This document shows, piece after piece, positions 1,132 to 22,016 of a DNA stretch of 23,162 nucleotides; position 1 is the first letter of the stretch, and every line of letters starts with the position of its first letter. The position numbers and the translations under genes were made by a program. Source of the DNA: a virus. Location: positions 1-23,162 of IMG/VR virus record IMGVR_UViG_3300037042_002341. One strand, given 5' to 3'. Under the pieces are notes generated by a model. That model was not told the DNA's origin, ran no database searches, and was given only the letters and a program-made list of their open reading frames with translations.

Positions 1132-1580
1132 TGAAAGTACTTAAGATTGAGACACCTAATAAACTACGGACTAAACATCTGTATGGTAGATTCTATACCC
1201 TGACTGAGACTTACATCATAAGGGTTATTACTACTGAGGGTACTATAGTTGCTACACTACGTAAAGGCTGGGTGACTGACTTTCGTAGTGGGTCTTCAAT
1301 CATTGATGCTTTTATACCATGGAAAGGCTCTGATGAATATAATGCTGGTGTCTTATTTCATGATATGTGCTATAGTGGCTGGTTGAGTAGAGGGCTTGCA
1401 GATGAGATATTATATCAAGTATGTGTACCAGAGATAGGTAAGTTTAGATCTAAGTGCATGTATCAAGCTGTGCACTCTTTTGGTTCATCTCACTACTTCA
1501 ATCTAACTGATGCAATGCCTAACCCTTATTCACTTAATCGACAAAAAGAGTCATTAAGATGGGATTGTGAACAAGTATAA
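1131..1580 (+). CDS. DUF1353 family protein
   Basis: A 149-aa protein. Residues about 46-85 contain the DUF1353 pattern: 'GWVTDFRSGSS', then 'VLFHDMCYSG' with the conserved His-Asp pair, then an R-x-L-A-D-E-I segment. DUF1353 proteins occur in many tailed phages among tail-end and lysis genes; their biochemical function is unknown. The start overlaps the preceding stop (TAATG), so the two genes are translationally coupled. The next gene, a membrane protein, is 31 bases downstream. I see no signal peptide or membrane segment. Family membership is reasonably sure; a role near lysis or the virion is only inferred from position. Confidence 0.75.
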   Translation: MKVLKIETPNKLRTKHLYGRFYTLTETYIIRVITTEGTIVATLRKGWVTDFRSGSSIIDAFIPWKGSDEYNAGVLFHDMCYSGWLSRGLADEILYQVCVPEIGKFRSKCMYQAVHSFGSSHYFNLTDAMPNPYSLNRQKESLRWDCEQV

Positions 1581-1583
1581 ATA
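1576..1583 (+). promoter_or_regulatory. TATAAATA late-promoter-like octamer
   Basis: Exact TATAAATA, 28 bases before the ATG at 1612. It overlaps the stop codon of the DUF1353 gene. It belongs to the set at 8124, 12557, 14743, 18028 and 22009, all just upstream of a + strand gene. It is identical to the T4 late promoter core. No matching -35 element is seen. Confidence 0.5.
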
Positions 1584-1611
1584 AGTTTATAACATCAACC
1601 ATGGAGTGAAT

Positions 1612-1914
1612 ATGACCGCAAGAAAAGATGAACGTATAGAATTATCAGCAAGTAAAGGTGCACTCGCATGGGTCAAATGGGCTGTGGGAATATTAATATC
1701 ATGTGGATTAGTAGGTGGTGGTATTGCACAGGATAATAAACTTGATGATCGAGTAATCAAACTTGAAGAAACTGTCAATAATAACACCATTGAAATATCC
1801 GGTGCAAAGATTGATTTAAAAAACTATTCTGCTCAACTTGTTTCTATGAATGCAGACATTAAAGAGACTCGGGCCACAACACAACAAATTTTGCTTATAT
1901 TAACTAAACGATGA
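1612..1914 (+). CDS. Small one-helix membrane protein with coiled coil, holin candidate
   Basis: A 100-aa protein. ATG at 1612 is preferred over the in-frame GTG at 1606 because GGAG at 1603-1606 sits five bases before it. Residues 1-17 are charged and presumably cytoplasmic, about 18-38 form one hydrophobic helix with GG and GGG, and about 43-95 are polar with heptad-like spacing (coiled coil). A single-span N-in protein of this size next to tail genes could be a class III-like holin, a spanin component or a virion-associated membrane protein. No endolysin is visible nearby to confirm lysis. It is the last gene before a strong terminator. Confidence 0.6.
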   Translation: MTARKDERIELSASKGALAWVKWAVGILISCGLVGGGIAQDNKLDDRVIKLEETVNNNTIEISGAKIDLKNYSAQLVSMNADIKETRATTQQILLILTKR

Positions 1915-1945
1915 AAAAAAAGACCCAGTAATTTGGGTCCTTTCT
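1914..1945 (+). terminator. Bidirectional rho-independent terminator
   Basis: GACCCA (1922-1927), loop GTAATT, TGGGTC (1934-1939), preceded by AAAAAAA and followed by CTTTCTT. It lies between the end of a + strand gene (1914) and the end of a - strand gene (1946), so it serves convergent operons. Confidence 0.85.
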
Positions 1946-2086
1946 TCATTTTAACTTATCTAATTGTATTCGTAGTTTATTCAATGCTCGTTTGTCCTCC
2001 TCACTAATCTCACGACTTGGTGCATGTTGTGTTGTATACTTATTTAAAATCTTAAACATTTCTGTCTTTATCTCTGGTCTGTTCAT
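1946..2086 (-). CDS. Small charged protein, unknown (46 aa)
   Basis: This 46-residue frame starts with AAAGGAG six bases upstream and overlaps the stop of the preceding gene as ATGA. The protein is charged and predicted helical throughout (starts M-N-R-P-E-I-K-T-E-M-F, ends R-I-Q-L-D-K-L-K) with no cysteine and no membrane segment. It is the last gene of a minus-strand operon and ends at the terminator at 1922-1939. I do not recognise the family. The overlap plus ribosome site make it a credible gene despite its size. Confidence 0.65.
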   Translation of the reverse strand: MNRPEIKTEMFKILNKYTTQHAPSREISEEDKRALNKLRIQLDKLK

Positions 2087-2190
2087 TTTGTCTCCTTTGT
2101 GTAATCCTTTAATATACAGGCTATATGTTCTGGTGTTAATCTTCCATCTGCTGCAAATGGTATCGATAGTATCTCTTCAATAAAACTCAT
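2083..2190 (-). CDS. Small protein, unknown (35 aa)
   Basis: A 35-residue frame chained at both ends by 4-base ATGA overlaps. Its ATG overlaps the stop of the HNH gene upstream and its stop overlaps the start of the 46-aa gene downstream. It begins M-S-F-I-E-E-I-L-S-I-P and contains a helix-like T-P-E-H-I-A-C-I-L-K-D segment. No recognisable ribosome site precedes it, so it probably depends on coupled translation. Its last codons hold the AAAGGAG site of the next gene. Function unknown. Confidence 0.55.
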   Translation of the reverse strand: MSFIEEILSIPFAADGRLTPEHIACILKDYTKETK

Positions 2191-2753
2191 ACTATTATAA
2201 ACTCTATATTTTTATGTTTTGTTAGTTTTCTTTGTACAGCGCACCTTAAACTTAATAGATTTAACTCAAATTTCATAGCAGCTTCTTTAATAGTATATTT
2301 AGTGTTATCTACTATAATGTAACGTTTTGTTAATGCATTTCCCCTAGCAATACAAGTTTCAATTGGTTGTGGTTTACCTTTTAAAGATTTACTAATATTA
2401 GTTCGGTGCTCTTGTGTATGTTTCACACCAGTTAAAGTTTCTTTAATTTTTGTTTTAGTTTCTTCTGAAAGTGGTCCTCTTTTAATACCTTTCATTCTAT
2501 CACTACAAGCCTTTCTAAATTCATCAGACTTTTTAACACCCGCGGAATGTAGTCTTGAATGTTCAGATGCTGTCATACAACCTAAATTCAATGGGTGATT
2601 ATTACAAGGGTTTTCGTCCCAATGATGTACTACACAACCTGGAAACCACATTGTCCATGATTTAAATCTTTCTGCAACAAATTTATGAAAATGTGTATTT
2701 CTTTTTGGTGTAATAAACTGTTTATTTTCTATCATCTTTTCATATTTATTCAT
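2187..2753 (-). CDS. HNH homing endonuclease with NUMOD3 repeats
   Basis: A 188-aa free-standing HNH nuclease. The core is at residues 41-70: V-V-H-H-W-D-E-N-P with the tandem His, then N51/N52, then E-H-S-R-L-H as the last motif. Residues about 76-130 carry NUMOD3-type repeats (K-G-I-K-R-G-P-L-S-E-E-T-K-x-K-I, then T-G-V-K-H-T-Q-E-H, then L-K-G-K-P), which read the DNA site in this family. The C-terminus (145-185) has a NUMOD1-like helix-turn-helix (Y-T-I-K-E-A-A-M-K-F). Start and stop overlap the neighbouring genes by four bases (ATGA), so it was inserted cleanly into an existing operon. Its target is probably a nearby locus in related phages lacking it (inference). Confidence 0.85.
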   Translation of the reverse strand: MNKYEKMIENKQFITPKRNTHFHKFVAERFKSWTMWFPGCVVHHWDENPCNNHPLNLGCMTASEHSRLHSAGVKKSDEFRKACSDRMKGIKRGPLSEETKTKIKETLTGVKHTQEHRTNISKSLKGKPQPIETCIARGNALTKRYIIVDNTKYTIKEAAMKFELNLLSLRCAVQRKLTKHKNIEFIIV

Positions 2754-2956
2754 TTAATCCTCAGATATAATAAGTAGTCATTATAGGAGTCTACTGCAAC
2801 CCACGCATAATCAGCAAAACTCTTAACTTCGGTCTCATATAAAAAATCATTAACTTTAGCAGTCGCAAATATACGTCGTTGGTCAATTCTTGGGGTCACT
2901 TCAATTCTTATACCTGAAATTATCATGACATATTGGTTGTACTGTTCATTTTTCAT
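2750..2956 (-). CDS. Small protein, unknown (68 aa)
   Basis: The frame has two successive ATGs (2959 and 2956). The second gives the better distance (seven bases) to GGAG, which lies in the last codons of the upstream HNH gene. The protein has alternating hydrophobic residues (V-M-I-I-S-G-I-R-I-E-V-T-P) followed by a Y/D-rich C-terminus (D-Y-A-W-V-A-V-D-S-Y-N-D-Y), suggesting a small alpha/beta domain. No membrane segment, signal or metal motif is seen. It is flanked on both sides by HNH genes with overlapping ends and may be one of the original operon members the endonucleases surround. Family not recognised. Confidence 0.6.
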   Translation of the reverse strand: MKNEQYNQYVMIISGIRIEVTPRIDQRRIFATAKVNDFLYETEVKSFADYAWVAVDSYNDYLLYLRIK

Positions 2957-3389
2957 CATGCATCTCCTTTAGTTTCTTCAGTGATATACCAGTTGCTTTA
3001 TGTGCAGCTATTCTACTCTCATATGTGATACCATTAACAGTGTGTGGTATACATCTTACCTCATGAACTCGCTTGTAAAATGTAGACTTATTGATATTAT
3101 CACTATGGGAACACCACTCAAGGTTCCCTAATATATTGTTCAATGGGTTACTGTCGATATGATTCACCTCATTATAATTGTTTGGATTAGGAATATATGT
3201 TAGTGCCATCCAATAATGAACACCACGTACTTCAACCTTCTTCTTTACCTTACTATAAAGTGAAACCTGTGTATAGCCACAGTTATTTATTGATATCTTA
3301 CGTTTATATATCACCCCTTGTTTATTAGTACTAAATATCTCGCCAGACTCATTAATACTATATCGCGTAAATCCTGGTATAATCTTCAT
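2946..3389 (-). CDS. HNH homing endonuclease, NUMOD4 type
   Basis: A 147-aa protein from ATG 3389. A TTG at 3404 extends the frame, but the ATG overlaps the stop of a 23-aa leader (ATGA) and is preferred. Residues 1-50 form a NUMOD4-like region (I-P-G-F-T-R-Y-S-I-N-E-S-G-E-I-F-S). The HNH core follows: H58, N-H-I-D at 76-79, N84/N85, N-L-E-W at 89-92 and N98. Residues 115-140 hold a NUMOD1-like HTH (G-I-T-Y-E-S-R-I-A-A-H-K-A-T-G-I-S). Length is normal for the family. It nicks or cuts DNA and spreads its own gene. The GGAG of the next gene lies within its 3' end. Confidence 0.85.
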   Translation of the reverse strand: MKIIPGFTRYSINESGEIFSTNKQGVIYKRKISINNCGYTQVSLYSKVKKKVEVRGVHYWMALTYIPNPNNYNEVNHIDSNPLNNILGNLEWCSHSDNINKSTFYKRVHEVRCIPHTVNGITYESRIAAHKATGISLKKLKEMHDEK

Positions 3390-3457
3390 ACAGTGTGCTT
3401 CCAAAAACTTAAAGTTAACATATATAAATTCCGACGTGTCTTAAAATAAAATGTCAT
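3386..3457 (-). CDS. 23-aa leader peptide or gene remnant ahead of the HNH gene
   Basis: A 23-codon frame has an excellent ribosome site (CGGAGG, four bases before ATG) and its TGA overlaps the ATG of the HNH gene. The peptide starts M-T-F-Y-F-K-T-R-R-N and is hydrophobic and basic. Either it is a leader whose translation drives the HNH gene, which has a poor site of its own, or it is the N-terminal stub of a host gene replaced by the endonuclease. It is the first frame of the operon after the putative promoter at 3490-3497. Confidence 0.5.
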   Translation of the reverse strand: MTFYFKTRRNLYMLTLSFWKHTV

Positions 3458-3489
3458 AAATCCTCCGTTATTCTTTGTTTCTATACATT

Positions 3490-3497
3490 TATTTATA
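3490..3497 (-). promoter_or_regulatory. TATAAATA octamer upstream of the minus-strand HNH operon
   Basis: Read on the - strand this is exact TATAAATA, 32 bases before the ATG of the 23-aa leader. It matches the octamer placed before + strand late genes. On the same strand GTGACA lies further upstream, about 17 bases from a TTATAA, so an ordinary sigma70-type promoter is an alternative reading. Confidence 0.4.
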
Positions 3498-3553
3498 ATA
3501 GTTATAGTATTCTTATGTCACAGAATCGCCACAGAATTGTAAAGATTATGTAA

Positions 3554-3590
3554 AGAAAAAGAACACCATTGCTGATGTTCTTATTTTTAT
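3554..3590 (-). terminator. Rho-independent terminator of the replication operon
   Basis: AAGAACACC (3559-3567), loop ATTGCT, GATGTTCTT (3574-3582): a 9-bp stem with one G-T pair. Read on the - strand it is followed by TTTCTTT; read on the + strand by ATTTTTATTTT, so it may work both ways. It lies just past the stop of the small membrane protein gene (3587). Confidence 0.8.
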
Positions 3591-3724
3591 TTTATTAAGA
3601 TATAACTTAGTACTTTGCTTTTTATAGTACCTTTTTCTAATTCTTCTCTAAGCGTAACAATTGTACAAAGAAAAAGAAAAGGTAAACCAAAAAATACAAA
3701 TAAAATCCATAGTAAACTTGCCAT
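3587..3724 (-). CDS. Small membrane protein, unknown (45 aa)
   Basis: ATG at 3724 is preceded by AAGGAG with a six-base gap. Residues 3-23 are almost wholly hydrophobic (I-L-F-V-F-F-G-L-P-F-L-F-L), giving one transmembrane helix, followed by a charged tail with R-E-E-L-E-K. The gene ends just before the terminator at 3559-3582. A 189-base gap with an 18-base palindrome separates it from the preceding gene, so it may have its own promoter. Such one-helix phage proteins can be holin-like, superinfection-exclusion or host-takeover factors; the sequence does not decide. Family not recognised. Confidence 0.65.
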   Translation of the reverse strand: MASLLWILFVFFGLPFLFLCTIVTLREELEKGTIKSKVLSYILIK

Positions 3725-3751
3725 TATTAACTCCTTATTGTTATATATAAA

Positions 3752-3769
3752 ATATAGAAAATTCTATAT
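3752..3769 (-). promoter_or_regulatory. Palindrome and possible minus-strand promoter element
   Basis: ATATAGAA-AA-TTCTATAT is a perfect inverted repeat with a two-base centre. On the - strand the element reads TTTCTATATT, 27-36 bases before the ATG of the membrane protein. The same ten bases occur at 6808-6817, 23-32 bases before the HTH gene. It could be a -10-like promoter element or an operator. The remainder of 3770-3913 is AT-rich with no gene I can support. Confidence 0.35.
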
Positions 3770-3913
3770 AATTTAGTAACTTTTTGTTAAAAAATAAGTG
3801 AAATATTTTGTAAATCTATCAACATTTTATAAACTTTTAACCAAAACATACTCATTTATTGACTCTAACCCACAAAGTTTGTACTGATGAACTGAATTGA
3901 CTGACTTTGTGAA

Positions 3914-4075
3914 CTAATGAACTCGATCACCATCATAAACTTTAGCTATTGCAGTGAGTTCTAATATATTTAAATCAATCTTAAGCTTGACCTCTGAGAT
4001 AAAACCTTTATATTTCTCTTTATATGGTGCAACATCAAGAAAATATGGTTGATATTGTGGATATATTAATTTCAT
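3914..4075 (-). CDS. Small protein, unknown (53 aa), end of the primase operon
   Basis: A 53-residue frame whose ATG overlaps the primase stop (ATGA). GGAG lies in the primase C-terminal codons, five bases upstream. The protein begins M-K-L-I-Y-P-Q-Y-Q-P-Y-F and continues with alternating charged and hydrophobic residues (L-K-I-D-L-N-I-L-E-L-T-A-I-A-K-V-Y), compatible with a small alpha/beta or helical domain. No cysteines and no membrane span. Its tight coupling to the primase suggests a replication accessory role, but this is inference from position only. Confidence 0.65.
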   Translation of the reverse strand: MKLIYPQYQPYFLDVAPYKEKYKGFISEVKLKIDLNILELTAIAKVYDGDRVH

Positions 4076-4920
4076 TTCTTCTCCGCTATACTATCCCATT
4101 TTCTTGTTAATTCTTGTTCAGACCAGTGTTCGCTTCTAGCTTTTGACCATATTAAGTTCTTTGTCTCTTCATCTTTATAAACTTTACATAATCTAAAGCA
4201 CTGAAATAATCCTATCTCACTCCATTTGTTTCCACCTGAAGATTTAAAAGGTGTGTTAAGCCACTCATTAACTGTCTTCTCACCAAGTGGTGTACGGAAT
4301 TTATAATTTCTTACACACACAGATCCACCAGTCATTGCTCTTTGTGGTTTATTATCTGCTATTAACTTATCCATTATTAATTTCTTAAATAATTTAACAA
4401 ACGGATCTAATGAAAACTTTTTACCTTTATTATAATGACTAAAATATTTACCATTAGGATTAATAGCTGGTGCATAATAACCTTGTACTTTCATAGTATT
4501 AGAATCAATACCATTAAATATCTTCTGTGTTAATACTAATTTCTTCATCATTGAATTACACCACATAGATGCAGGATATTCTTTATCTAATGGCAAAACT
4601 ATTCTAAACTTCTGTGCACAATTTACGGCATTATTGTATGAAGTATAGAAGAAAAATTCATAATCTTTAAAGTTCTGAATAGCTTCTTTATAACCAACTG
4701 AATCATCATAGTCTAGAAATAAAACATCAAACACTTGTACATTGGTTTCGTGACGACGACCCGGGATATCTTTAACTTTAAAAGGGAATAGGTAAGGTAA
4801 TTTTAATTTTTCTAAACCAACAACTGGACTCTCAATCATACATAGTAAATCTTCTGTAGTATATGATTGGTTTTCAACAATTGTATTAACTTCATGACTT
4901 TCTAATATTTGAATATGCAT
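4072..4920 (-). CDS. DNA primase, archaeo-eukaryotic (AEP/PrimPol-like) catalytic domain
   Basis: A 282-aa protein. Residues 64-73 (F-D-V-L-F-L-D-Y-D-D) fit the metal-binding D-x-D motif I of AEP primases. Then Y-T-S-Y-N-N (92-97) and K-F-R-I-V-L-P-L-D (104-112) match the segment typical of phage PrimPol proteins, and N-G-I-D (136-139) with G-Y-Y-A-P (147-151) follow. The C-terminal 80 residues hold W-S-E repeats of helical type (P-F-K-S-S-G-G-N-K-W-S-E) and may be a helicase-binding or PriCT-like region. It would make primers at the fork. The helicase gene ends seven bases upstream, so both are made from one mRNA; in many related phages these two domains are fused in one protein. Confidence 0.7.
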   Translation of the reverse strand: MHIQILESHEVNTIVENQSYTTEDLLCMIESPVVGLEKLKLPYLFPFKVKDIPGRRHETNVQVFDVLFLDYDDSVGYKEAIQNFKDYEFFFYTSYNNAVNCAQKFRIVLPLDKEYPASMWCNSMMKKLVLTQKIFNGIDSNTMKVQGYYAPAINPNGKYFSHYNKGKKFSLDPFVKLFKKLIMDKLIADNKPQRAMTGGSVCVRNYKFRTPLGEKTVNEWLNTPFKSSGGNKWSEIGLFQCFRLCKVYKDEETKNLIWSKARSEHWSEQELTRKWDSIAEKK

Positions 4921-4927
4921 ATAATCC

Positions 4928-6520: not shown

Positions 6521-6572
6521 TGTAGCCTCTATAAATATAATTGTTAAATTAGTAAGAATCCTCCGTTTAATT

Positions 6573-6606
6573 AGAATCATCCTAATCCGATGATTCTTTT
6601 TATTTT
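6573..6606 (+). terminator. Hairpin with T-run on the + strand, between the helicase and HTH genes
   Basis: AGAATCATC (6573-6581), loop CTAATCC, GATGATTCT (6589-6597), then TTTTATTTT: a strong rho-independent terminator for + strand transcripts. On the - strand, the direction of the genes here, it lies just after the stop of the HTH gene and is followed by AATTAAAC rather than T, so it would be a weak terminator or a processing site between the HTH and helicase messages. Confidence 0.6.
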
Positions 6607-6785
6607 CCTAAGAACTCAAAGTGTCTACCATTATACTTACCATCGCGTGCTAACATGCATTGATAAATAGACTTAGCTGATACATCTAATAACCTAGCTA
6701 ATTCACTTATATTCTCGTAAGTCTCGTCAAGTTCAATACAACGAATCTTCTGCTTCGTCTTTGATGGAATTCTAAAAATTTTCAT
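6600..6785 (-). CDS. Small helix-turn-helix protein, NUMOD1-like
   Basis: A 61-aa basic protein with GGAG five bases before ATG. Residues about 22-58 (Y-E-N-I-S-E-L-A-R-L-L-D-V-S-A-K-S-I-Y-Q then G-R-H-F-E-F-L-G) match the NUMOD1-like HTH found at the C-termini of the HNH endonucleases in this window, but no nuclease domain is attached. It is the first gene of the replication operon and sits beside the repeat-rich divergent region. It could be an autoregulator, an origin-binding protein or the leftover tail of a lost homing endonuclease. DNA binding is likely from the fold; the role is inference. Confidence 0.6.
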   Translation of the reverse strand: MKIFRIPSKTKQKIRCIELDETYENISELARLLDVSAKSIYQCMLARDGKYNGRHFEFLGK

Positions 6786-6947
6786 ATGTTCTCCTTTTGT
6801 TTATAACAATATAGAAATAATTTTCTAATGTTGTTTCGTTTTTCTATAATTATTTATTGTTTCTAATGTTTCTTTTTGCATAAAAAAGCTAAAGTTTAAG
6901 AAAATAATTAAAAAAGCGTATACAATATTATGATTTGCGCGCGTACA
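6786..6947 (-). promoter_or_regulatory. Leader and promoter region of the replication operon
   Basis: No gene is seen here. The sequence is very AT-rich. On the - strand TTTCTATATT (6808-6817) is shared with the leader of the 45-aa membrane gene. ACATTAGAAA occurs twice on the - strand. GCGCGCG at 6937-6943 is a sharp GC island. A promoter reading leftward into the HTH and helicase genes is expected here, but I cannot fix its -10 and -35. Confidence 0.4.
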
Positions 6948-7217
6948 GGTTAATGTAGTTAACTGGGTTAAGTTGTAGTTATGAACCTTAACCTAGTCTC
7001 TCCTTACTCTAAGTAAGATCAGATCAGTTTAGGTTAAAAAGTTAAGTGAAAGTTACCATTGACTGACTGGAAATAATTTAAAAATATTTTTTCAAATTTT
7101 AAAAACCTCAAAAATGAAAAAGCCTTAACTTTTTAACCCAGTTGACTACGGGACTTACTGCCGCAAGGAAAGGATTGGGTTAAGGCCCTTAACTTTTACT
7201 TAACCCTTAACCCAGTT
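6948..7217 (+). repeat. Iteron-like repeat region, candidate replication origin
   Basis: Eight copies of GGTTAA/TTAACC occur: 6948, 6966, 6988, 7032, 7133, 7178, 7200 and 7207 (first base). Outer inverted repeat: AACTGGGTTAAG at 6961-6972 and its exact complement at 7206-7217, with an 11/12 copy at 7132-7143. Inner inverted repeat: 7030-7046 against 7124-7140, 16 of 17 paired. Between the inner arms lies an A/T tract (about 7070-7105). GTTAAGG-C-CCTTAAC (7179-7193) and AGTTAACT (6957-6964) are palindromes. The region separates the leftward replication genes from the rightward late genes. Iterons plus an AT-rich core suggest an origin; a cluster of repressor or activator sites is the alternative. 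The stretch 7218-7258 holds only AT-rich sequence. Confidence 0.6.
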
Positions 7218-7261
7218 TTCCTCATTTTTTAACTTTAAAATAATATATTGATAAATATGTG

Positions 7262-7708
7262 ATGAGTACAAGAGAAGAGAAACGAGAGAAGAGTGCACGG
7301 TTATCGAGGACAAGATACCATAAATCCTGTCGTAAGATGATTGGTTATCAGATAGATGAATACAAAGCTAATAACCCCTGGAGACATGGTGCACATCTCG
7401 ACCACGATCCATATAGCTTTGGTATGATAGTTGATATATTCAGGTCTTGTTTACAGAGGTGGCAGTGTAGTACAGTAGAACCTAAATTAATAATTGACTA
7501 TACTAGACCTGGTGCAATGTTTAGAGAATATCATCTAACTGTTGCTGAATACAAGATTGTTGATGCACATGATAATCTTAGTAAGGCTAGTAAACAAACA
7601 AGAAAGAATATGTATGGTTTAAGTATTGATGATTATAACAGTGCTGTCATCTATCTAACTAATAAATTTAATGAATTATTTGGAGTTATATGCGAGGATA
7701 TGAAGTAA
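7262..7708 (+). CDS. Unknown protein, possible HNH-like nuclease fold (148 aa)
   Basis: First rightward gene after the repeat region. ATG 7262 is chosen; GTG 7259 is also in frame. No Shine-Dalgarno is visible and GATAAATA (7250-7257) lies only four bases upstream, so a leaderless message is possible. The N-terminus is very basic (R-E-E-K-R-E-K-S-A-R-L-S-R-T-R-Y-H-K). Residues about 48-55 read G-A-H-L-D-H-D-P and about 90-105 read F-R-E-Y-H-L-T-V-A-E-Y-K, which recalls the first and last motifs of divergent HNH nucleases. This is a loose resemblance, not a family call. It overlaps the next gene by 19 bases. Confidence 0.55.
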   Translation: MSTREEKREKSARLSRTRYHKSCRKMIGYQIDEYKANNPWRHGAHLDHDPYSFGMIVDIFRSCLQRWQCSTVEPKLIIDYTRPGAMFREYHLTVAEYKIVDAHDNLSKASKQTRKNMYGLSIDDYNSAVIYLTNKFNELFGVICEDMK

Positions 7709-8123: not shown

Positions 8124-8131
8124 TATAAATA
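8124..8131 (+). promoter_or_regulatory. TATAAATA late-promoter-like octamer before the packaging genes
   Basis: Exact TATAAATA, 54 bases before the TTG start of the small terminase candidate. TTGTGA lies 16 bases upstream of TATAAA, so a sigma70 reading is possible here. Confidence 0.5.
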
Positions 8132-8185: not shown

Positions 8186-8680
8186 TTGATACCTTTAGAC
8201 AACGTACTTGATGGCGATTCATCATGGAGGAATATGAAGAATACAGATGATTTAAGAATAGTTCAGTGGTTTAAGAATGCGAAAGAGATTGTTAAAAGTA
8301 ACCCTGATTGGTTAGTTGTATGTAGTGTTGATGAATTTGTTAAATATGTTAATAGTAAACAGGATATATCATTGCGTATATCAACAACTTATCTCAACCA
8401 AATGCTTTCTTATAACCAAGAAACATCATCTATGCCAGTTGAAACCTATGAGAAGTTCGGCACAGATCTAAAAGAGTGGTGGGAAAATTGCAAGCGAGAA
8501 CAGGAGATGGCACTTTATCAGAAGATGATGAGCAACCCTACTTGTTGGAACCGAGAAGACACAGTACTAAGTAAGCGGTTCGGAAAGAAGTGGTGGAAGA
8601 CTGAGGTTCAAAAACTTGATGCAGATGTAAATGCAAAAGTAGACCAAACCATTAAAATTACATTTACAGAAAAAACTTAG
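8186..8680 (+). CDS. Small terminase subunit candidate
   Basis: A 164-aa protein directly upstream of the large terminase, close in length to P22 gp3. The frame begins with TTG at 8186, eight bases after GGGAG; a stop codon lies immediately upstream, so no longer start exists. ATG 8234 (148 aa) behind ATGGAGG, with only three bases of spacing, is the alternative. The N-terminal half is mixed alpha (W-F-K-N-A-K-E-I-V-K-S-N-P-D-W), the middle has W-W-E-N-C-K-R-E-Q-E and the C-terminus V-D-A-N/K-x-D-Q-T-I-K-I-T-F-T. It would recognise the packaging site and feed DNA to TerL. The call rests on position and size; no family motif is certain. Confidence 0.55.
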   Translation: MIPLDNVLDGDSSWRNMKNTDDLRIVQWFKNAKEIVKSNPDWLVVCSVDEFVKYVNSKQDISLRISTTYLNQMLSYNQETSSMPVETYEKFGTDLKEWWENCKREQEMALYQKMMSNPTCWNREDTVLSKRFGKKWWKTEVQKLDADVNAKVDQTIKITFTEKT

Positions 8681-8708
8681 TATTTCCAATTTGATTCATG
8701 GAGGTTTT

Positions 8709-9146
8709 ATGAAACAAATTGGAAATACTGAATATTATATTAATGAAAATGGTGATTGCTTTGATAAAAATTTAAAAAAAATATCATCAGATTTTGATAA
8801 ATATGGTTATAAAAATGTAAGATTAACTATTAATGGAAAAAGAAAACGATTCACAGTGCATAGACTTGTAGCGAAAACTTTTATACCAAACCCAGATAAT
8901 AAACCTTGTGTTGACCATATTGATAGGATAAGGTCTAATTCACATGTTTCTAATCTTAGATGGGTAACTGTACGAGAAAACTGTAATAACACTAAAGAAA
9001 TTAAATCAATTTACTGTTATAATAATAAAACATATTTGTCATCTAGATATGCCGCTGAAGATTTAGGATTAAATCCCAACAGTGTAAAGACAATAATGAA
9101 TAACCATAATTGTGAAATAAAAGGTTATAGGTTTAAATATGTCTAA
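8709..9146 (+). CDS. HNH homing endonuclease between terS and terL
   Basis: A 145-aa protein. ATG 8709 follows GGAGG with four bases; an in-frame TTG at 8691 is not needed. Residues 1-45 are NUMOD4-like (Y-Y-I-N-E-N-G-D-C-F-D). The HNH core: H-R-L-V-A (51-55), V-D-H-I-D (68-72), N-L-R-W (82-85) and N91. The C-terminal NUMOD1-like HTH (102-145) has Y-L-S-S-R-Y-A-A-E-D-L-G. Its last eight bases overlap the start of the large terminase gene. Free-standing endonucleases often target the gene beside them, here a terminase gene (inference). Confidence 0.85.
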   Translation: MKQIGNTEYYINENGDCFDKNLKKISSDFDKYGYKNVRLTINGKRKRFTVHRLVAKTFIPNPDNKPCVDHIDRIRSNSHVSNLRWVTVRENCNNTKEIKSIYCYNNKTYLSSRYAAEDLGLNPNSVKTIMNNHNCEIKGYRFKYV

Positions 9147-10443
9147 AGATATAACAATTGATTTAATGCCACATCAAAAACAATTAATGATGTCTGAATC
9201 ACCAGTAACATTATTTGTTGGTGGAAGATCATGTGGTAAATCTTGGATTCTTGGAATGCGGATAGCTACAACTTTACTTGAAGGTTATAATGTTCTTGGT
9301 GTATCGCAATCATATAAAACTGCAAAGTTAGTTCTTCTTAAAGCTGTAACAGATGCACTTGATATAATTGGTGTTAAATATGAAACAAATATAGGAGATC
9401 TAACCCTCAAAGTTGGAAAAGCAACTCTATACTTATTCAGTGCACAATCATTAGAAGCTGTTCGGGGACTTACAAATATTCGTTTACTTGCTGTAGATGA
9501 GATTGCTTTGTGTCCAGAAGAAGGTTTTAATATATGTCTAGCAACTTTACGTGGTCAAGGTGCACCAAGAGTGGTAGCATGCACAACTCCAAGGGGACGT
9601 CATTGGATTAATAAGTATATGAACGATGATTCTAATACTATTATTAGAGCTACAACAATGAGTAATACATTTCTTGATGATGGTTTTGTTAAATTACTTG
9701 AAAAACAATATTCTGATGAATTTTATAAGCAAGAAATATTAGGTGAGGTTTTAAATAACGATGCTCCAAATCAAATGATTCCTAATTCATTACTTACAAA
9801 TATTCAAAATGTTTTACCAGATCAACCAGATTGGAAATATGTGATTGGTATTGATCCATCAAGATTTGGTGTTGATAAAACAATTATTTGTGTACGTAAG
9901 GGTAAGAACATTATTGCACACGAAGCCCTTGATAAAACAAATACAGATCAAATTGTTGAATTGGTTAGAAAGTATGAACGAAAATATATTAAATCTAATA
10001 TATCACAAATAAACTTTGACGCCACAGGTGGTTTCCATGCGGGTGCGGTAGATGAATTAAAAAAGACTAATAATAATATTCGTGAAATTAACTTTAGTGG
10101 TAAATCACCATCAAATAATATAAAAAATATGCGAACTTATATGTATCAGTTGGCAATTGAATATTTTGAAGCTGGTGGTTGTGTAGGTTATTATCCAGAA
10201 TTAGTTGAACAATTAGAAGCACAGGAATATTTGATTGGCTCGGATGGTAAGAAAGGATTAGTACCAAAGATTAATATTAAGCAAAAACTCGGAATTTCCC
10301 CCGATGATAGCGATGCATTTTGTTTAAGTTTAATTACAGATTCAGATATGTTTACTAATGGTCTACTTATTAAGTCACTACAAGAAGGCCAACGCAGATT
10401 ACTATTCAAAGCAATATCGGATTCAGCTGGTTGGGGATCATAA
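9139..10443 (+). CDS. Terminase large subunit
   Basis: A 434-aa packaging motor. ATPase domain: Walker A G-G-R-S-C-G-K-S (28-35), Walker B L-L-A-V-D-E (116-121, D120/E121), coupling motif A-C-T-T-P-R-G at about 148-153. RNase H-like nuclease: G-I-D-P-S-R with D239, F-D-A-T-G-G with D294, and S-P-D-D-S-D-A-F with D389, D390 and D392. Length and motif order are those of headful-type TerL proteins. It pumps DNA through the portal encoded next and cuts it. Its ATG lies inside the end of the HNH gene with only a weak AGGT site, so translation may be coupled. Confidence 0.95.
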   Translation: MSKDITIDLMPHQKQLMMSESPVTLFVGGRSCGKSWILGMRIATTLLEGYNVLGVSQSYKTAKLVLLKAVTDALDIIGVKYETNIGDLTLKVGKATLYLFSAQSLEAVRGLTNIRLLAVDEIALCPEEGFNICLATLRGQGAPRVVACTTPRGRHWINKYMNDDSNTIIRATTMSNTFLDDGFVKLLEKQYSDEFYKQEILGEVLNNDAPNQMIPNSLLTNIQNVLPDQPDWKYVIGIDPSRFGVDKTIICVRKGKNIIAHEALDKTNTDQIVELVRKYERKYIKSNISQINFDATGGFHAGAVDELKKTNNNIREINFSGKSPSNNIKNMRTYMYQLAIEYFEAGGCVGYYPELVEQLEAQEYLIGSDGKKGLVPKINIKQKLGISPDDSDAFCLSLITDSDMFTNGLLIKSLQEGQRRLLFKAISDSAGWGS

Positions 10444-10446
10444 ATA
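10439..10446 (+). promoter_or_regulatory. CATAAATA, one-base variant of the late octamer, before the portal gene
   Basis: It overlaps the TerL stop and lies 31 bases upstream of the portal ATG. It differs from TATAAATA at the first base. Weak evidence alone; included because position fits the other copies. Confidence 0.3.
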
Positions 10447-12556: not shown

Positions 12557-12564
12557 TATAAATA
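12557..12564 (+). promoter_or_regulatory. TATAAATA late-promoter-like octamer before the scaffold/coat genes
   Basis: Exact octamer in the 78-base gap between portal and scaffold, 61 bases before the scaffold ATG at 12626. It would allow extra transcription of scaffold and coat, the proteins needed in most copies. Confidence 0.5.
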
Positions 12565-14705: not shown

Positions 14706-14742
14706 AAAAAGAACCTAAGAGAAATCTTAGGTTCTTTTCTTT
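14706..14742 (+). terminator. Strong rho-independent terminator after the coat gene
   Basis: GAACCTAAGA (14711-14720), GAAA tetraloop, TCTTAGGTTC (14725-14734), then TTTTCTTTT; flanking A and T bases extend the stem by four pairs. It ends the scaffold-coat message and is followed at once by a promoter-like octamer. Confidence 0.92.
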
Positions 14743-14750
14743 TATAAATA
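14743..14750 (+). promoter_or_regulatory. TATAAATA late-promoter-like octamer before the tail genes
   Basis: Exact octamer within the trailing T-run of the coat terminator, 21 bases before ATG 14772. It extends to TATAAATACAC, shared with 22009-22019, and both are followed by a TATATA-type stretch and a GRGG ribosome site. Transcription must restart here for the tail genes unless the terminator leaks. Confidence 0.6.
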
Positions 14751-15504: not shown

Positions 15505-16176
15505 ATGAACTTATATAAAATTTACCATGATATATGCAATAGAGGTAATGAACGAGGTATAAAGCGAATGAAAGGTTTTGAATTACATCATATATTACCT
15601 AGATCATTAGGTGGATTAGATGTTGAGTCAAATTTGACACTATTAACACCAAAGGAACATTTTGTTGTACATCACTGTTTAGATAAAACAGGAAATAATA
15701 AAATGCATAGAGCCTTTTGGTTAATGTCTAATACTAGAGGTTTTAAATTATCTTCTAAAGAATATGAAATTTTAAAGTTAAATTTTAAAACCTCAGATGA
15801 AGCTAGAAAAAACATGTCTATTGCACAGAAAGGAAAAAAGAAATCTGTTGAACATATTGAAAAAATAAGATTATCTAATATTGGACTAAAGCGTTCGGAT
15901 GAAACAAAATTAAAAATATCTAAACTTAAGATTGGTAATACTAATAGTTTAGGAAGAATAGTTTCAGATGAAACAAAATTAAAACAATCTATTGCAAAAC
16001 TTGGTAAGTCAAATTCCGAAAGCCATATTAAAAATAGAGTTGATAAGATTAATAAACAATATTCATATAATGGTATAATTTATCCTAGTCATATTTTAGC
16101 AGCAAAAGCTATGGGAATTAGTATTGGTTCATTAAATTATATAATTAAAAAGAATAAAATTAAGGGGGAAGTATGA
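15505..16176 (+). CDS. HNH homing endonuclease with NUMOD3 repeats, between tail genes
   Basis: A 223-aa protein with AAGGAG seven bases before ATG. The HNH core: E-L-H-H-I-L-P-R-S-L-G-G (26-37), N43, then E-H-F-V-V-H-H (51-57). Several NUMOD3 repeats fill about 95-180 (K-S-V-E-H-I-E-K-I-R, G-L-K-R-S-D-E-T-K, I-V-S-D-E-T-K). A NUMOD1-like HTH (about 190-220; Y-P-S-H-I-L-A-A-K-A-M-G-I-S) ends it. Its TGA overlaps the ATG of the gp10-like gene (ATGA). It is one of four such genes in the window. Confidence 0.88.
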   Translation: MNLYKIYHDICNRGNERGIKRMKGFELHHILPRSLGGLDVESNLTLLTPKEHFVVHHCLDKTGNNKMHRAFWLMSNTRGFKLSSKEYEILKLNFKTSDEARKNMSIAQKGKKKSVEHIEKIRLSNIGLKRSDETKLKISKLKIGNTNSLGRIVSDETKLKQSIAKLGKSNSESHIKNRVDKINKQYSYNGIIYPSHILAAKAMGISIGSLNYIIKKNKIKGEV

Positions 16177-17681
16177 TTATTGACTTCTTGTGCGCAAGTT
16201 CGTATAAGTATCGTTCGTTAAGTTTTAGTAATCAAAAACTTACAAATCTTTATTCTGAAAATATAGAAACTGATGCATCCTACACAAAAACTGTTAAGAT
16301 TAGTACACCAGGTTCAACAAGTGCAGTCTCTCTTCCACCTAATGGAAAGGTTGGCATCAGAGGTATGTATCTTAGTTCAAAAGGACCAGCACCAGATTTT
16401 AATTCAAGATTATATTGTGCAGTAGGTAAAACAATCTATAGAGTTAATGAAGATTTTACATATTATGCATTAGGCACTGTTGGAGATAACTATACTCAAA
16501 TAAAATTCACAGATAATGGGTTTGATCTTTGTGTCACTGATGGTTATTCATTCTTCACTTGTCCACTTGATGCTGCTGATGGATCGCAAGAATTAACATT
16601 AACAGCACAAACAATGCCATATATTGCAGGTACATTTAATTTAGTCGAACCAGATAATATTATATATCTTAATGGTTATATTGTTATTAATTCTAAAAAC
16701 ACCAATGAATTCTTTTATTCAAATATTGGTGCAACAGGTGCAGAAGATTGGGACTCCACTAGATTTCAACAAGCTGAAGGAAGTGCTGATAAAATTAATG
16801 CATTGGCAACAAGAGGTGGAGAACTTTGGGTATTTGGTCAGCGTTCATTTGAAATATATGATGTTACTAGTGATGAATTTACACCATTTGCAAGAGTTGG
16901 TGGTTCATTTACAGAGATTGGTTGTGGACAGCAGAAGAGTGTTGCACAAATATCAGACCTTATCTTTTGGTTAGGTTCATCTAATGTTGGCAATAATGTT
17001 GTATACATGGCTAATGGACTTACACCAGTTAGAATATCTGATAATGGTTTAGAACATATTATTGGCAAGATGAGAGCACCAACAGATTGCACTGGATTTT
17101 GTTATAGTGAAGAAGGTCATGTATTCTATGTACTAACATTTCATACTGACGATCAAACTTGGGTATATGATGCTACAACAAGACAGTGGCATAATAGAGC
17201 TACAAGAAATAGACTGTTAAATATTAATCATAAGTGGAACCCATTGTATTCACAGTTTGCTTATGGTAAGACTTATTTTGGTTCTGATGATAGTGCAGTA
17301 TTACTTTATCTTGATACAAATAAGTATGATGAATGGGATGGAACACCAATTGTTAGAGAACTTATATCACCAACATATATTAGCTCACATGAACAATTTG
17401 CAATAAAATCATTACAATTAGATATTGAAGTTGGTGGTACAAAAGTATTAGTTGGTCAGGGTTCTAATCCACAGATAATGTTACAAGTATCAAAAGATGG
17501 TGGATATACTTGGAGTAATGAGAAGTGGAGATCATTGGGTGCACTTGGTAAATATACAACCAGAGTTAAATGGCATGTATTAGGTTATGGTACAAAGGTT
17601 GCATTTAGATTTGTTATTAGTGATCCAATATCAGTTATAATTAATTCAATTGTTTTAGAAACTGAAAATAGTGGGTGGTAA
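16173..17681 (+). CDS. Packaged DNA stabilisation protein, P22 gp10-like
   Basis: A 502-aa protein; P22 gp10 has 472. It starts with a gp10-type N-terminus (F-S-N-Q-K-L-T-N-L-Y-S-E-N) and proceeds through beta-propeller-like repeats (G-N-Y/D-T-Q-I-K-F-T-D-N-G-F-D, Y-L-N-G-Y-I-V-I-N-S-K-N-T-N, A-L-A-T-R-G-G-E-L-W-V-F-G). In P22 it forms the hexameric hub that plugs the portal exit and carries the tailspikes. GGGGGA precedes the start. The next gene starts immediately after its stop. Confidence 0.9.
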   Translation: MIIDFLCASSYKYRSLSFSNQKLTNLYSENIETDASYTKTVKISTPGSTSAVSLPPNGKVGIRGMYLSSKGPAPDFNSRLYCAVGKTIYRVNEDFTYYALGTVGDNYTQIKFTDNGFDLCVTDGYSFFTCPLDAADGSQELTLTAQTMPYIAGTFNLVEPDNIIYLNGYIVINSKNTNEFFYSNIGATGAEDWDSTRFQQAEGSADKINALATRGGELWVFGQRSFEIYDVTSDEFTPFARVGGSFTEIGCGQQKSVAQISDLIFWLGSSNVGNNVVYMANGLTPVRISDNGLEHIIGKMRAPTDCTGFCYSEEGHVFYVLTFHTDDQTWVYDATTRQWHNRATRNRLLNINHKWNPLYSQFAYGKTYFGSDDSAVLLYLDTNKYDEWDGTPIVRELISPTYISSHEQFAIKSLQLDIEVGGTKVLVGQGSNPQIMLQVSKDGGYTWSNEKWRSLGALGKYTTRVKWHVLGYGTKVAFRFVISDPISVIINSIVLETENSGW

Positions 17682-18032
17682 ATGACAACATTAAATACAG
17701 TATCAAAAGCATGGTCACAAGTATATGAACCTTCTAACCCTATGTTTAAACTTGCATGGACTCAAATAGTTAATGCAATTCAAGGAACATGGGGCACTGG
17801 TTCAATTGATAATGTTACTAATGGTTCAGGCCATTGGATTCGTTCAAGTAATATATTTTCATTTAGAGTTAATGCTACAGATTCGACAGTGATTACATTG
17901 CCATTTGTACCAAAAGAAAACTATTTGATATTTGCTGGTTCATCTATAATTCAAGGTGTTGCTGGTGTCAATATATTAAATATCAATCTAACAACTCCAA
18001 CCACAATTGAAGCGCATAATATCGTAGTATAA
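17682..18032 (+). CDS. Small virion or tail-tip protein, unknown (116 aa)
   Basis: A 116-aa protein whose ATG directly follows the stop of the gp10-like gene. It is beta-rich with few charges (T-V-I-T-L-P-F-V-P, I-L-N-I-N-L-T-T-P-T-T-I-E), suggesting a jelly-roll-like or trimeric beta domain. It occupies the place of the P22 tail needle (gp26, 233 aa), but no long coiled coil is present, so a needle is unlikely unless much reduced. A knob, head-decoration or tail-plug protein is possible. Its stop overlaps a TATAAATA octamer. Confidence 0.5.
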   Translation: MTTLNTVSKAWSQVYEPSNPMFKLAWTQIVNAIQGTWGTGSIDNVTNGSGHWIRSSNIFSFRVNATDSTVITLPFVPKENYLIFAGSSIIQGVAGVNILNINLTTPTTIEAHNIVV

Positions 18033-18035
18033 ATA
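18028..18035 (+). promoter_or_regulatory. TATAAATA late-promoter-like octamer before the ejection genes
   Basis: Exact octamer overlapping the preceding stop codon, 19 bases before ATG 18055. No terminator lies upstream here, so it would add transcription to a read-through message. Confidence 0.45.
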
Positions 18036-18054
18036 TATCTTATAGGAGAATCAC

Positions 18055-19110
18055 ATGGATCCAATTACCGGAGTTATTTTAGCAGGCGCTATCCTTAAAT
18101 TAGGATCAGGTGTTGCCAATGCTGTGTTTGGTGATGCTGCACAAGGTCGTTCAATGAAAGAAATGGCTGAATATCTTGATGCACAACCAGAAGTTTATAG
18201 ACAACAGATGGCAGAAAAACTTAAGAATTTAGAAGCCAATTCAGGTAATGTTCAGAAAGCTAACATAGCTCTTCAGGATATTGCTGATTATAATAAATCT
18301 TTTCAAGCAGGTCAATATGCTGTTGGACCAAAGAAAGAGTGGAAAGATACATTCACCACTGAACAATTTCTTAATCCATATCTTGTTCAAAAGAAAAAAG
18401 AAAATGAAGAAGCACTAGCCAGAGCAAATGTTAGGTCTGGTGGACTTTATTCTGGTGGTACTGGTCTTGCTATGCTTGAGAAATCAAATGAAGTAACTGC
18501 TGATGATTGGTTACAGGCAGTTCAACAAAAGACTACTGAACGTCAATTTGATTACACCAAAGACCGCCAAGACTACGCAGATATAATTGCACAAGCTGAT
18601 AGAAACCTTGAGCTCTGGAAGACTGGTGGACTGGTTAAACAAAGTACAGCTAATGCATATGGTGGTATTGTTACAAACACAGGCAAAGAAATCCAAGCCA
18701 AGAATAATGCATTACAAACTTATTTTGATAGTCTCAATGCTAATTCAAATGATAAAGCTAAACTTGCGGCACTAAAAGCCGGTAATCTTCCAATGTGGCA
18801 AAAGATATTAACAGGTACAATGAATGCTGGTGGTGATGTTGCTGATGTTATGTCACAAGTTATGGCTTCTAACCCTTCAAAAACATATGATGTTGGTGAT
18901 AGTGGTGTAGCTACAACAACTGGTTCATCTTATGCAGCAATGGGAATGAAACCTTATACTGGTGCATCTGGTGTTGATAATCCAAGCATGGACCCTGAAG
19001 CTTATAACTTTAATTATCCTGCTGCAACAAGAACTGATTTAGGTGGATCACAAACATATACACCAACGAATAGACAAACAACAAATTTAGGTACACAGTA
19101 TACACCTTAA
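18055..19110 (+). CDS. Internal virion/DNA ejection protein candidate (P22 gp7-like position)
   Basis: A 351-aa protein with AGGAG seven bases before ATG. Residues 4-26 are hydrophobic and glycine-rich (I-T-G-V-I-L-A-G-A-I-L), as in many phage DNA-transfer proteins. The middle is helical and Q/E/K-rich (about 40-240). The last 70 residues are low-complexity, rich in T, Y, G, N and P. With the next two genes it forms a trio after gp10, matching the P22 order of ejection genes gp7, gp20 and gp16. Such proteins leave the capsid first and form a channel through the cell envelope. Identity within the trio is inferred. Confidence 0.65.
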   Translation: MDPITGVILAGAILKLGSGVANAVFGDAAQGRSMKEMAEYLDAQPEVYRQQMAEKLKNLEANSGNVQKANIALQDIADYNKSFQAGQYAVGPKKEWKDTFTTEQFLNPYLVQKKKENEEALARANVRSGGLYSGGTGLAMLEKSNEVTADDWLQAVQQKTTERQFDYTKDRQDYADIIAQADRNLELWKTGGLVKQSTANAYGGIVTNTGKEIQAKNNALQTYFDSLNANSNDKAKLAALKAGNLPMWQKILTGTMNAGGDVADVMSQVMASNPSKTYDVGDSGVATTTGSSYAAMGMKPYTGASGVDNPSMDPEAYNFNYPAATRTDLGGSQTYTPTNRQTTNLGTQYTP

Positions 19111-19119
19111 GGAGATAAC

Positions 19120-20649
19120 ATGGCAGATTCAACAATGATAGGGCTTGGTGGTTACGATCCATACCGTGCAAAGACTGAAGCAACTAAATCTTTTGATGAA
19201 TATTCAAAGGCTTTCTCCACACCTGTTCAAGGATATGCTTCTTCAATTGGTAAAGTTGATGAAATTACTAGGGCTGGTAAAATTAAAGAAATTCTTTCAA
19301 ACCCTAATTTACTAGAGAATGGTGAAATTGATTATCAACAGTTAGGTACTGCTCTTATGCCTTATGATGAAGTAATGGCTAAGAAATATCTTGACCTAGC
19401 TAGTGAACAAAAGTTAAAACGTGAAACACTAGAAACTCAAAAATCGGTATATGCTCAGAAGAGAGAAGATCAAGTAGATATTGAGGCTAAGAAGAGAGAC
19501 GATAAAGCAAAAGCTGAAGCACTAAAGAATAAGGAAGAGTTGGATAAATGGGATTTGACAACATTGCCCGGTCAAGAACAGTGGTATAAAGATTATAAAG
19601 ATGCAGAACGTAATTTAACTTCTGCTTCACTTGGTAGTCCAGAAAAGATTGATATTCAAAATCGTATGCAAAATATGATAAAGAAAGCTGTAGTGGCTAA
19701 TGCTTTAGATATGTTAGATAAATACAGTTTTGTTAAGCCAGATAAAGGTTGGGAATCACTTTTAACAAAAACTGATGATAAAACCCCTCCACCGGGTCAA
19801 ACTCCGCCACCAGTTAAAATAAATGTAGAAAGTGCAACAACTCAAACTGCAGTTAATGATGCTATTGGTACTCCACCTTCTAAATTTAAAGATGATGCTT
19901 CTAAACAGTGGGTTGTTGCTAATAAGGCATCTGTTGATCGTAACCCTAATATTGATCAAGTTGCAGCAAAGAAAGTAATTGATGAAAGATTTAATGCATT
20001 ATCTAACCCACCAGCAAGTTCTAATAAAGTTGCTGAGAATAAAGCTAAAGCATATGCAAATGAATTTATTGGTGCATCTGATCTTAAACCTTTAATTAAG
20101 AAAATAACAACAGCTAGACAAGAACTTATTGGAATGATTAATCAGGTTAAGAATGGTAAATATGCAGCAGTTAATCTTGCACCTTTTAAAGAAGTGATGG
20201 GTTCATTAAGTGAAGGTGAATATGGTATTGCTACTAACTCACCTATTGCAGGTCTGGCTTCATCTATTCCATGGGTTGGTCAATCTATATCTAGTCTTAT
20301 TGGTGTTGATAAATTTAACAATCAAGCCGACGCCCTTAAAACTGTTAATGATTTTATTAGAGAATTCAATAGTGCAAATGCTAAATGGAGAACACCTTCG
20401 ACTGCTGCTAACTTAGAAGGCACTGGAATTGATAAAACATTATTTGATAAAGAAATGAAAACTAATGGATCATATGGTGCATTGTTATCTGCTATTGGTA
20501 ATGAAATTCCAGCATTAACTGTTGGTGCATCTGGGAAACCAGAAGAAGAAAAAACATCAACTTTAAAGAAACCATTGTCAAGTGATTATAAAGATTTTGG
20601 TTCATTTCAAAAAGCGATGAATGATTATAGAGCAAAAGGAGGGAAATAA
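19120..20649 (+). CDS. Ejection (injection) protein candidate, helical (509 aa)
   Basis: A 509-aa protein with AGGAG seven bases after the previous stop region. N-terminal half: charged coiled coil (about 95-160; K-L-K-R-E-T-L-E-T-Q then R-D-D-K-A-K-A-E). A proline-rich hinge (P-P-P-G-Q-T-P-P-P at about 223-231) is followed by a second helical region (about 295-470). No enzyme motif such as a lytic transglycosylase is seen. It overlaps the next gene by one base (TAATG). Most likely a large pore-forming ejection protein like P22 gp20 or gp16; the match is by position, size and composition only. Confidence 0.6.
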   Translation: MADSTMIGLGGYDPYRAKTEATKSFDEYSKAFSTPVQGYASSIGKVDEITRAGKIKEILSNPNLLENGEIDYQQLGTALMPYDEVMAKKYLDLASEQKLKRETLETQKSVYAQKREDQVDIEAKKRDDKAKAEALKNKEELDKWDLTTLPGQEQWYKDYKDAERNLTSASLGSPEKIDIQNRMQNMIKKAVVANALDMLDKYSFVKPDKGWESLLTKTDDKTPPPGQTPPPVKINVESATTQTAVNDAIGTPPSKFKDDASKQWVVANKASVDRNPNIDQVAAKKVIDERFNALSNPPASSNKVAENKAKAYANEFIGASDLKPLIKKITTARQELIGMINQVKNGKYAAVNLAPFKEVMGSLSEGEYGIATNSPIAGLASSIPWVGQSISSLIGVDKFNNQADALKTVNDFIREFNSANAKWRTPSTAANLEGTGIDKTLFDKEMKTNGSYGALLSAIGNEIPALTVGASGKPEEEKTSTLKKPLSSDYKDFGSFQKAMNDYRAKGGK

Positions 20650-21809
20650 TGTTGACTCAAGATGAACTAGATCTACAAGAATGGTTGCAATCAAAAGCTG
20701 AATCTGGTGAAATGACTGAAGAAGAATTTAAACAACTTCAAGCATTAGATTTAAAATCTAGTGGAATTGAACAAAAAGCTAATATTGCAAAGGTTCGTGC
20801 TGAGAATACACCAGAGGCAATGAATAAACAGATTGAAGAAGAACGCACTAAGATTTATAAAGAAGAAAATCCAATTCTTTCTAAAATGTATGAAATTGCT
20901 GCACCTCATGGTTTTAAAAAGTCTATGCAAACTGGTTCAATGGCCCCAAATCTTTATGATGTTGGTGATGCTGCATTAGGTGCTGGTTCAGTTCTCGGTG
21001 CTGCAGCGATTGTCCCAGCTGCTGGAGTTGGGTTTCCACTTGCTATTGGAATGAATGCTTTAGGTGGAGCAACAGGTACTGCAATATCTAAATTAGGTGG
21101 AGCTGGATTAGATATTGCCCAAGGTACACAGCCAGAATCAATTAAAGATATTGGTAAGGATGTTGCATTAGGTGGAGCAATTGGTGGTACACTCGGTGGT
21201 TTAGGTGAAGTTCTTGAAGTTGGGTTTAGTAAAGTTTTTAATGCTAATCCAAAGTTTATGAGTGAAGTTGGACCAACAACAGTTACCTCAATAAAAAATA
21301 AGATTCAAAAGTCAATAGAATCAGCTCTTGAGAAAGCTCCTGAAAAAACAATAACACCAGAAATGATTCAGCAAAGTTCTAATGATGTTATTGATGAACT
21401 CGGTAAAGCCATTCCAGAAGCATCAAAACAAAAGTTAAAAAGAATAATTGCTGAAGAATTTGCTCCATCTGCTGTACCTCAACAAAACATGCTGTCACCA
21501 ATACCTGATGAAAATCTTTATAATTCAAGTGATTATTTAGCTAGATTAAAGGGTTTAGGTGGCGGAAGTAAATATGAAGACCCTCTCTCTTATGTTATGG
21601 GTGAGAAAGGTCAAGCAAGAGTATTAGCAAAACAAGGATTAGAACGTGCAATTGGTTCAAAAGATGTATTAAGTCTTATGAGTCAAGCTAAAAATGTAAA
21701 AGAACCTGGTTTATTAAATCAATTTATTCCAGGTATATCACAAGTTAGTAAAATATCAAAAAACATCAGTCCATCTATAGATTGGCTGTCACCATCAGGA
21801 GAACAATAA
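20649..21809 (+). CDS. Ejection protein candidate with glycine-zipper membrane region (386 aa)
   Basis: A 386-aa protein; GGAGGG precedes the ATG. An acidic helical N-terminus (1-90) is followed by about 100-190, a long G/A-rich hydrophobic region with GxxxG-type spacing (A-A-L-G-A-G-S-V-L-G-A-A-A and G-G-A-I-G-G-T-L-G-G-L-G), typical of membrane-inserting or pore-forming segments. The C-terminal half is charged and helical. It is the third gene of the ejection trio and probably inserts into the host envelope during DNA entry. The next small gene overlaps its stop (TAATG). Confidence 0.62.
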   Translation: MLTQDELDLQEWLQSKAESGEMTEEEFKQLQALDLKSSGIEQKANIAKVRAENTPEAMNKQIEEERTKIYKEENPILSKMYEIAAPHGFKKSMQTGSMAPNLYDVGDAALGAGSVLGAAAIVPAAGVGFPLAIGMNALGGATGTAISKLGGAGLDIAQGTQPESIKDIGKDVALGGAIGGTLGGLGEVLEVGFSKVFNANPKFMSEVGPTTVTSIKNKIQKSIESALEKAPEKTITPEMIQQSSNDVIDELGKAIPEASKQKLKRIIAEEFAPSAVPQQNMLSPIPDENLYNSSDYLARLKGLGGGSKYEDPLSYVMGEKGQARVLAKQGLERAIGSKDVLSLMSQAKNVKEPGLLNQFIPGISQVSKISKNISPSIDWLSPSGEQ

Positions 21810-21973
21810 TGAAAGATGTAATCGAAGAATCATGCCGTTGCCCTCAGTGCCAATTTGAAGCCCCAATGTCTGAATTTAAACCTAAGCAATATGCTGATAA
21901 AGGCGCAAAGATTGAGATTGAAATTGGAGAAGATGAAACACCAAGTAAAGAATGGCTTGATCCAAAAGGATAA
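21809..21973 (+). CDS. Small zinc-ribbon-like protein (54 aa)
   Basis: ATG 21809 has AGGAGA six bases upstream and overlaps the stop of the ejection gene; an in-frame start further upstream at 21782 is inside that gene and less likely. Residues 9-14 read C-R-C-P-Q-C, a CPxC knuckle as in half of a zinc ribbon, but no second cysteine pair follows. The rest is acidic (E-I-E-I-G-E-D-E-T-P-S-K-E-W). Function unknown. It ends just before a strong terminator. Confidence 0.65.
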   Translation: MKDVIEESCRCPQCQFEAPMSEFKPKQYADKGAKIEIEIGEDETPSKEWLDPKG

Positions 21974-21976
21974 TAA

Positions 21977-22010
21977 AGAAGGTAGAGTAAAATCTACCTT
22001 TTTATTTTTA
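21977..22010 (+). terminator. Rho-independent terminator of the ejection operon
   Basis: AAGGTAGA (21979-21986), loop GTAAAA, TCTACCTT (21993-22000), then TTTATTTTTA. The following octamer at 22009 overlaps its T-run, the same layout as after the coat gene. Confidence 0.9.
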
Positions 22011-22016
22011 TAAATA
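22009..22016 (+). promoter_or_regulatory. TATAAATA late-promoter-like octamer before the tailspike
   Basis: Exact octamer, extended to TATAAATACAC as at 14743. It lies 22 bases before the tailspike ATG and directly after a terminator, so it is the natural place for a new transcript start. Confidence 0.6.

Follow-up and report, generated by a model that had tools for sequence, protein, structure and literature searches.

Candidate T4-type late promoters in the gaps between late genes of a virus with P22-type virion genes

The window analysed here, which is the whole of virus record IMGVR_UViG_3300037042_002341, is a linear stretch of 23,162 bases with 33% GC and no end repeats. Its plus strand carries a head module with PHROG matches at E values of 4e-20 to 4e-81, in which P22-type portal, coat and head closure genes follow one another in the P22 order (Table 1). 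The record is an incomplete genome, and the missing stretch may hold a sigma factor. Positions 1-519 are the open 3′ portion of another, tail-type gene, and the right end falls inside a tailspike-like gene (22039-23162). The two may belong to a single tailspike gene as its opposite ends, in which case the record would be nearly whole; a genome of about 24 kb would be unusually small for a phage with a P22-type virion. A homologue covering both segments was sought and none was found.

Homing-type endonuclease genes of the HNH/NUMOD kind are numerous, with four in 23 kb (2187-2753 and 2946-3389 on the minus strand, 8691-9146 and 15505-16176 on the plus strand), and a NUMOD1 fragment is present at 6600-6785. 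The divergent replication and late regions are separated by a 470-base spacer that contains many copies, in both orientations, of a TTAACCCAGTT / CCTTAAC-type repeat (listed at 6944-7217). By analogy, these repeats may be likened to a replication origin or an operator array.

Table 1. Genes, octamers and terminators in the window.
Feature	Position	Strand	Context
Terminase large subunit (terL)		+	PHROG terminase match
Portal, P22-type		+	phrog_156, 5e-70
Scaffold		+	head module
Coat		+	phrog_283
Head adaptor		+	head module
Head closure Hc3		+	phrog_578, 4e-81
Late genes without assignment and tailspike-like gene		+	tailspike-like gene cut by right end
Primase-like gene, helicase gene, HNH operon		-	
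TGTAAATA, 1 mismatch	514..521 (accurate to ~2 nt)	+	overlaps stop codon ending at 519; before gene at 544
TATAAATA	1576..1583	+	overlaps stop codon of DUF1353 gene; 31 nt before small membrane (holin-like) gene
TATAAATA	3490..3497	-	~60 nt downstream of terminator 3582-3559; 32 nt before 23-codon leader ORF of HNH operon
Terminator	3582-3559	-	upstream of octamer 3490
TATAAATA	6530..6537	+	antisense, between two minus-strand genes; no plus-strand gene within 700 nt
TATAAATA	8124..8131	+	54 nt before ORF upstream of terminase gene (terminase small subunit position)
CATAAATA, near copy	10439..10446	+	overlaps terL stop codon; 31 nt before portal gene
TATAAATA	12557..12564	+	43 nt before annotated scaffold start
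Intrinsic terminator, -18.2 kcal/mol, z -5.8	14707..14738	+	ends coat gene unit; abuts octamer 14743
TATAAATA then CACTATATA	14743..14750	+	directly 3′ of terminator; 21 nt before head adaptor gene
TATAAATA	18028..18035	+	overlaps stop codon; 19 nt before 351-aa late-cluster gene (no family match)
Intrinsic terminator, -13.4 kcal/mol, z -4.2	21976..22003	+	abuts octamer 22009
TATAAATA then CACATTATATA	22009..22016	+	directly 3′ of terminator; 22 nt before tailspike-like gene

The octamer TATAAATA occurs eight times in the window, and all eight copies are located in non-coding sequence, which makes up about 9% of the DNA. The original prediction held that such octamers mark the starts of late genes, and it listed six on the plus strand and one on the minus strand, along with the near copies CATAAATA and GATAAATA. 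Every entry in this list is present, although one plus-strand copy, at 6530, had been overlooked. That copy is probably not a promoter, given its antisense position ahead of no plus-strand gene. The near copy GATAAATA at 7250 was also rejected, as it is only 4 nt from a start codon and thus too close for a leadered promoter of the T4 type. Plausible sites with the exact core therefore number seven, and CATAAATA and TGTAAATA provide two more.

Ten genes on the plus strand follow a gap of 20 nt or more. Six are preceded by an exact octamer and two by a well-placed copy with one mismatch (CATAAATA before the portal gene and TGTAAATA before the gene at 544). The remaining two are the inserted HNH gene at 15505, which has no copy, and the gene at 7262, with its too-close GATAAATA. 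At the six plus-strand sites the octamer is separated from the start codon by 19-54 nt, consistent with short leaders; in T4, 12 of 13 intergenic octamers fall at 14-28 nt by the same measure. The scaffold gene has a likelier internal ATG about 61 nt downstream of the octamer at 12557. The first HNH gene on the minus strand is separated from the octamer at 3490 by a leader ORF of 23 codons (~3385-3457), which has a strong ribosome site.

The placement of the octamers is beyond chance. The comparison with shuffled sequence that the original prediction proposed is negative when the whole window is counted alone (8 copies versus a mean of 5.1 expected, with 8 or more in 18 of 100 shuffles), whereas the predicted intergenic excess is strongly evident. 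The gaps of the plus-strand late genes, 769 bases altogether, hold six sense-strand copies versus 0.31 expected, and none of 2000 dinucleotide shuffles reaches six; TATAAATA is absent from the antisense strand of these gaps. Even without being named beforehand, TATAAATA emerges as the commonest 8-mer of the late gaps, being found in 6 of 12 where the next best is found in 2, and among its 56 anagrams no other exceeds 2. Moreover, neither strand of the coding DNA contains a copy, whereas 3.8 would be expected from shuffled codons (P=0.012).

Sequences adjoining the octamer were also compared with those of T4. A TTATA- or TATAR-like element occurs no more than 14 nt after the octamer at seven of seven sites versus 16% of spacer DNA, a pattern that was picked after seeing the sites and whose p value is accordingly not trustworthy. 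When a matrix of T4 downstream sequence was applied in a fixed register, the window sites did not score above background (p 0.37), and the TTATA/TATAR-like pattern was not recovered. The sites at 14743 and 22009 served to define an extended form, TATAAATACAC-N0-3-TATATA. A search of IMG/VR found it in 97 stretches, and 26 of these include T4 structural genes in their flanks. In 22 of these 26 contigs, the extended form is followed at 10-26 nt by the start codon of an ORF with 50 or more codons, and T4 itself carries TATAAATACACTATAT before gene 19. Three further contigs with the extended pattern encode gp55-type sigma proteins. The extended promoter is accompanied by a 270-aa gp55-like protein in the large contigs L288 and L289 (71 and 109 kb), which have no T4 structural matches in the flank. 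Three pattern contigs with a P22-type portal match (L238, G041 and G074) were rejected, because the octamers they carry fall within coding sequence or do not precede late genes.

In our judgement the octamers are very likely to be promoters of some kind. The sequence comparisons further suggest, with somewhat less certainty, that they are probably single-element late promoters of the T4 type operating in a P22-type podovirus, together with a reader supplied by the phage. According to this model, TATAAATA would serve as the only -10-like element of each late transcription unit and would be followed by an AT-rich start region, usually with TTATA or TATAG/TATAA 3-7 nt on. A sigma-like specificity factor from the phage would redirect the core RNA polymerase of the host, which would then start late mRNAs with short leaders. 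The gene for this reader would lie in the portion of the genome absent from the record, or the reader might be one of the unassigned small ORFs. The steps visible in the DNA itself are the position, strand and exactness of the octamers, their tandem arrangement with terminators, and an extended form common with late promoters of the T4 superfamily; that transcription starts at the octamers, and that a phage factor and not host sigma-70 reads them, are steps we infer.

A more far-reaching proposal concerns origins. A small P22-type podovirus could have come to the T4 late promoter with a factor unrelated in sequence to gp55, or with one borrowed from a co-infecting T4-type phage, such that the octamer is read without the replication-coupled clamp of T4. 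We regard this as possible, if rather doubtful. More generally, T4-type promoter punctuation in a P22-type podovirus would mean that the logic of late promoters can move, or evolve anew, without regard to virion type, and the virus would offer a small system for finding the minimal reader of TATAAATA.

Alternatively, host sigma-70 might recognize these sites as a variant -10 element (TATAAA) with a weak -35, perhaps aided by a phage activator. There is no consensus -35 upstream of the octamers, only a bias in the best -35-like match at a spacing of 16-18, which averages 3.6 of 6 against a control mean of 2.65 (p about 0.005); this bias is weak and comes from one of several tests made. T4 late sites average 2.3 in the same test, unlike the window sites, and the minus-strand site at 3490 has GTGACA at 18 nt. 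The bias keeps host sigma-70 among the rivals and is the main reason that our confidence is not higher. Nevertheless, every copy has A instead of T at position 6 of the putative -10, and the conserved unit extends two bases past the hexamer. The host-type element is TATAAT, and the late gaps contain none of these and seven TATAAA, six of them inside TATAAATA. At two sites, a terminator hairpin occupies the location where a -35 would be, and sigma-70 consensus sites in the window are fewer than in shuffles. On balance, we consider recognition by host sigma-70 unlikely.

The terminators also bear on whether the octamer functions at the RNA level, as a signal for processing, stability or translation in the leaders of late mRNAs. 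Such a role would fit the frequent overlap of copies with an upstream stop codon shortly before a start codon. However, two copies are located directly 3′ of terminators, where run-on RNA would end, and the octamer exactly reproduces a promoter core known from DNA, in the extended form as well. The succession of a terminator, an octamer and then a gene needing expression favours a promoter and disfavours an RNA signal, which we thus hold to be very unlikely. Still less credible is a chance occurrence in AT-rich spacers, which would agree with the non-significant whole-window count but is strongly disfavoured by the gap-matched shuffles, the anagram control, the strand asymmetry and the depletion in coding DNA.

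The original prediction called for a search of the rest of the genome for gp55-like or ECF-like sigma factors. Within the 23-kb fragment, no match was obtained with the gp55-family models phrog_234 and phrog_12791 (T4 served as positive control with both), with T4 gp55 itself or with sigma-70 region 2. The same gp55 models found nothing in 45 records of P22-type relatives. Annotation of the window's genes turned up no gp33 or gp45 either. AlphaFold models of the unassigned ORFs at 7262-7708 and 8231-8680 had pLDDT values of 48 and 39 and were unusable. The earlier picture of a P22-type phage with T4-type promoters therefore holds for the virion genes, which PHROG matches assign to the P22 type, and for the T4-like position and build of the octamers, but its gp55-like or other phage sigma as their reader is hypothetical. 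One could imagine that the virus encodes no reader and relies on a T4-type phage infecting the same cell to supply the late sigma that turns on its late genes. The search result and an extended promoter form that is that of T4-type phages would both accord with this scenario, but no positive evidence points to it, the genome is incomplete and the fragment carries terminase, portal, coat and replication genes of its own, making dependence on a co-infecting phage very unlikely.

Comparison with P22-type podoviruses places the fragment at a distance from its relatives. P22 and the small podoviruses VvAW1, X14, P26218 and Vibrio 1.211.A have the same gene order in the head module, with identities across this group of 22-26% for the portal and 30-33% for the head closure protein. 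In the full relatives examined, by contrast with the fragment, the late gaps are free of octamers. Scans of IMG/VR with single proteins (portal, terL, Hc3 and helicase) returned nothing closer than 31% identity, and none for terL and helicase, and GTDB genomes scanned with Hc3 gave no match. Profile scans added 160 further P22-type loci (portal 25-30%, Hc3 30-35%), most of them more GC-rich, without the octamer pattern. Altogether, about 170 loci with a P22-type portal or Hc3 are without an octamer pattern between their genes, as judged in two of the three comparisons from the most AT-rich and octamer-richest loci among those listed. All relatives are distant (portal 22-30%, Hc3 23-35% identity) and most are more GC-rich. 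As far as these sequences go, they show that the octamer trait is not general in the group with P22-type virions, from which its uniqueness does not follow. Because no relative preserves the pattern, the group provides no conservation test.

The closest parallels to the octamers come from other phages. Classically, T4 late promoters have been linked with gp55, gp33 and a replication clamp that belong to large phages. The sites described here share with those promoters an identical octamer, short leaders and an AT-rich start region, and probably also the lack of a consistent -35, despite the weak bias noted above; the extended TATAAATACAC..TATATA form recurs before T4-type late genes. In contrast to T4, the virion and packaging genes of the fragment are of the P22 type, and no gp55-family or sigma region 2 match is present within it. 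The late promoters of T4 and KVP40 have TATAAATA, and those of cyanophages have NATAAATA (PMC2984593). Phages related to phiEco32 provide a precedent for a phage sigma in a podovirus, since phi32_gp36 reads the single element tAATGTAtA and transcription starts 6-8 nt downstream (PMC8948821). Their single-element late promoters resemble the arrangement in the fragment, which differs in the promoter core and in having no match to sigma region 2. ViI-type phages such as SboM-AG3 are large and encode homologues of gp55, gp33 and gp45, and they share with the fragment late promoters similar to TATAAATA outside the T4 group proper (PMC3121705).
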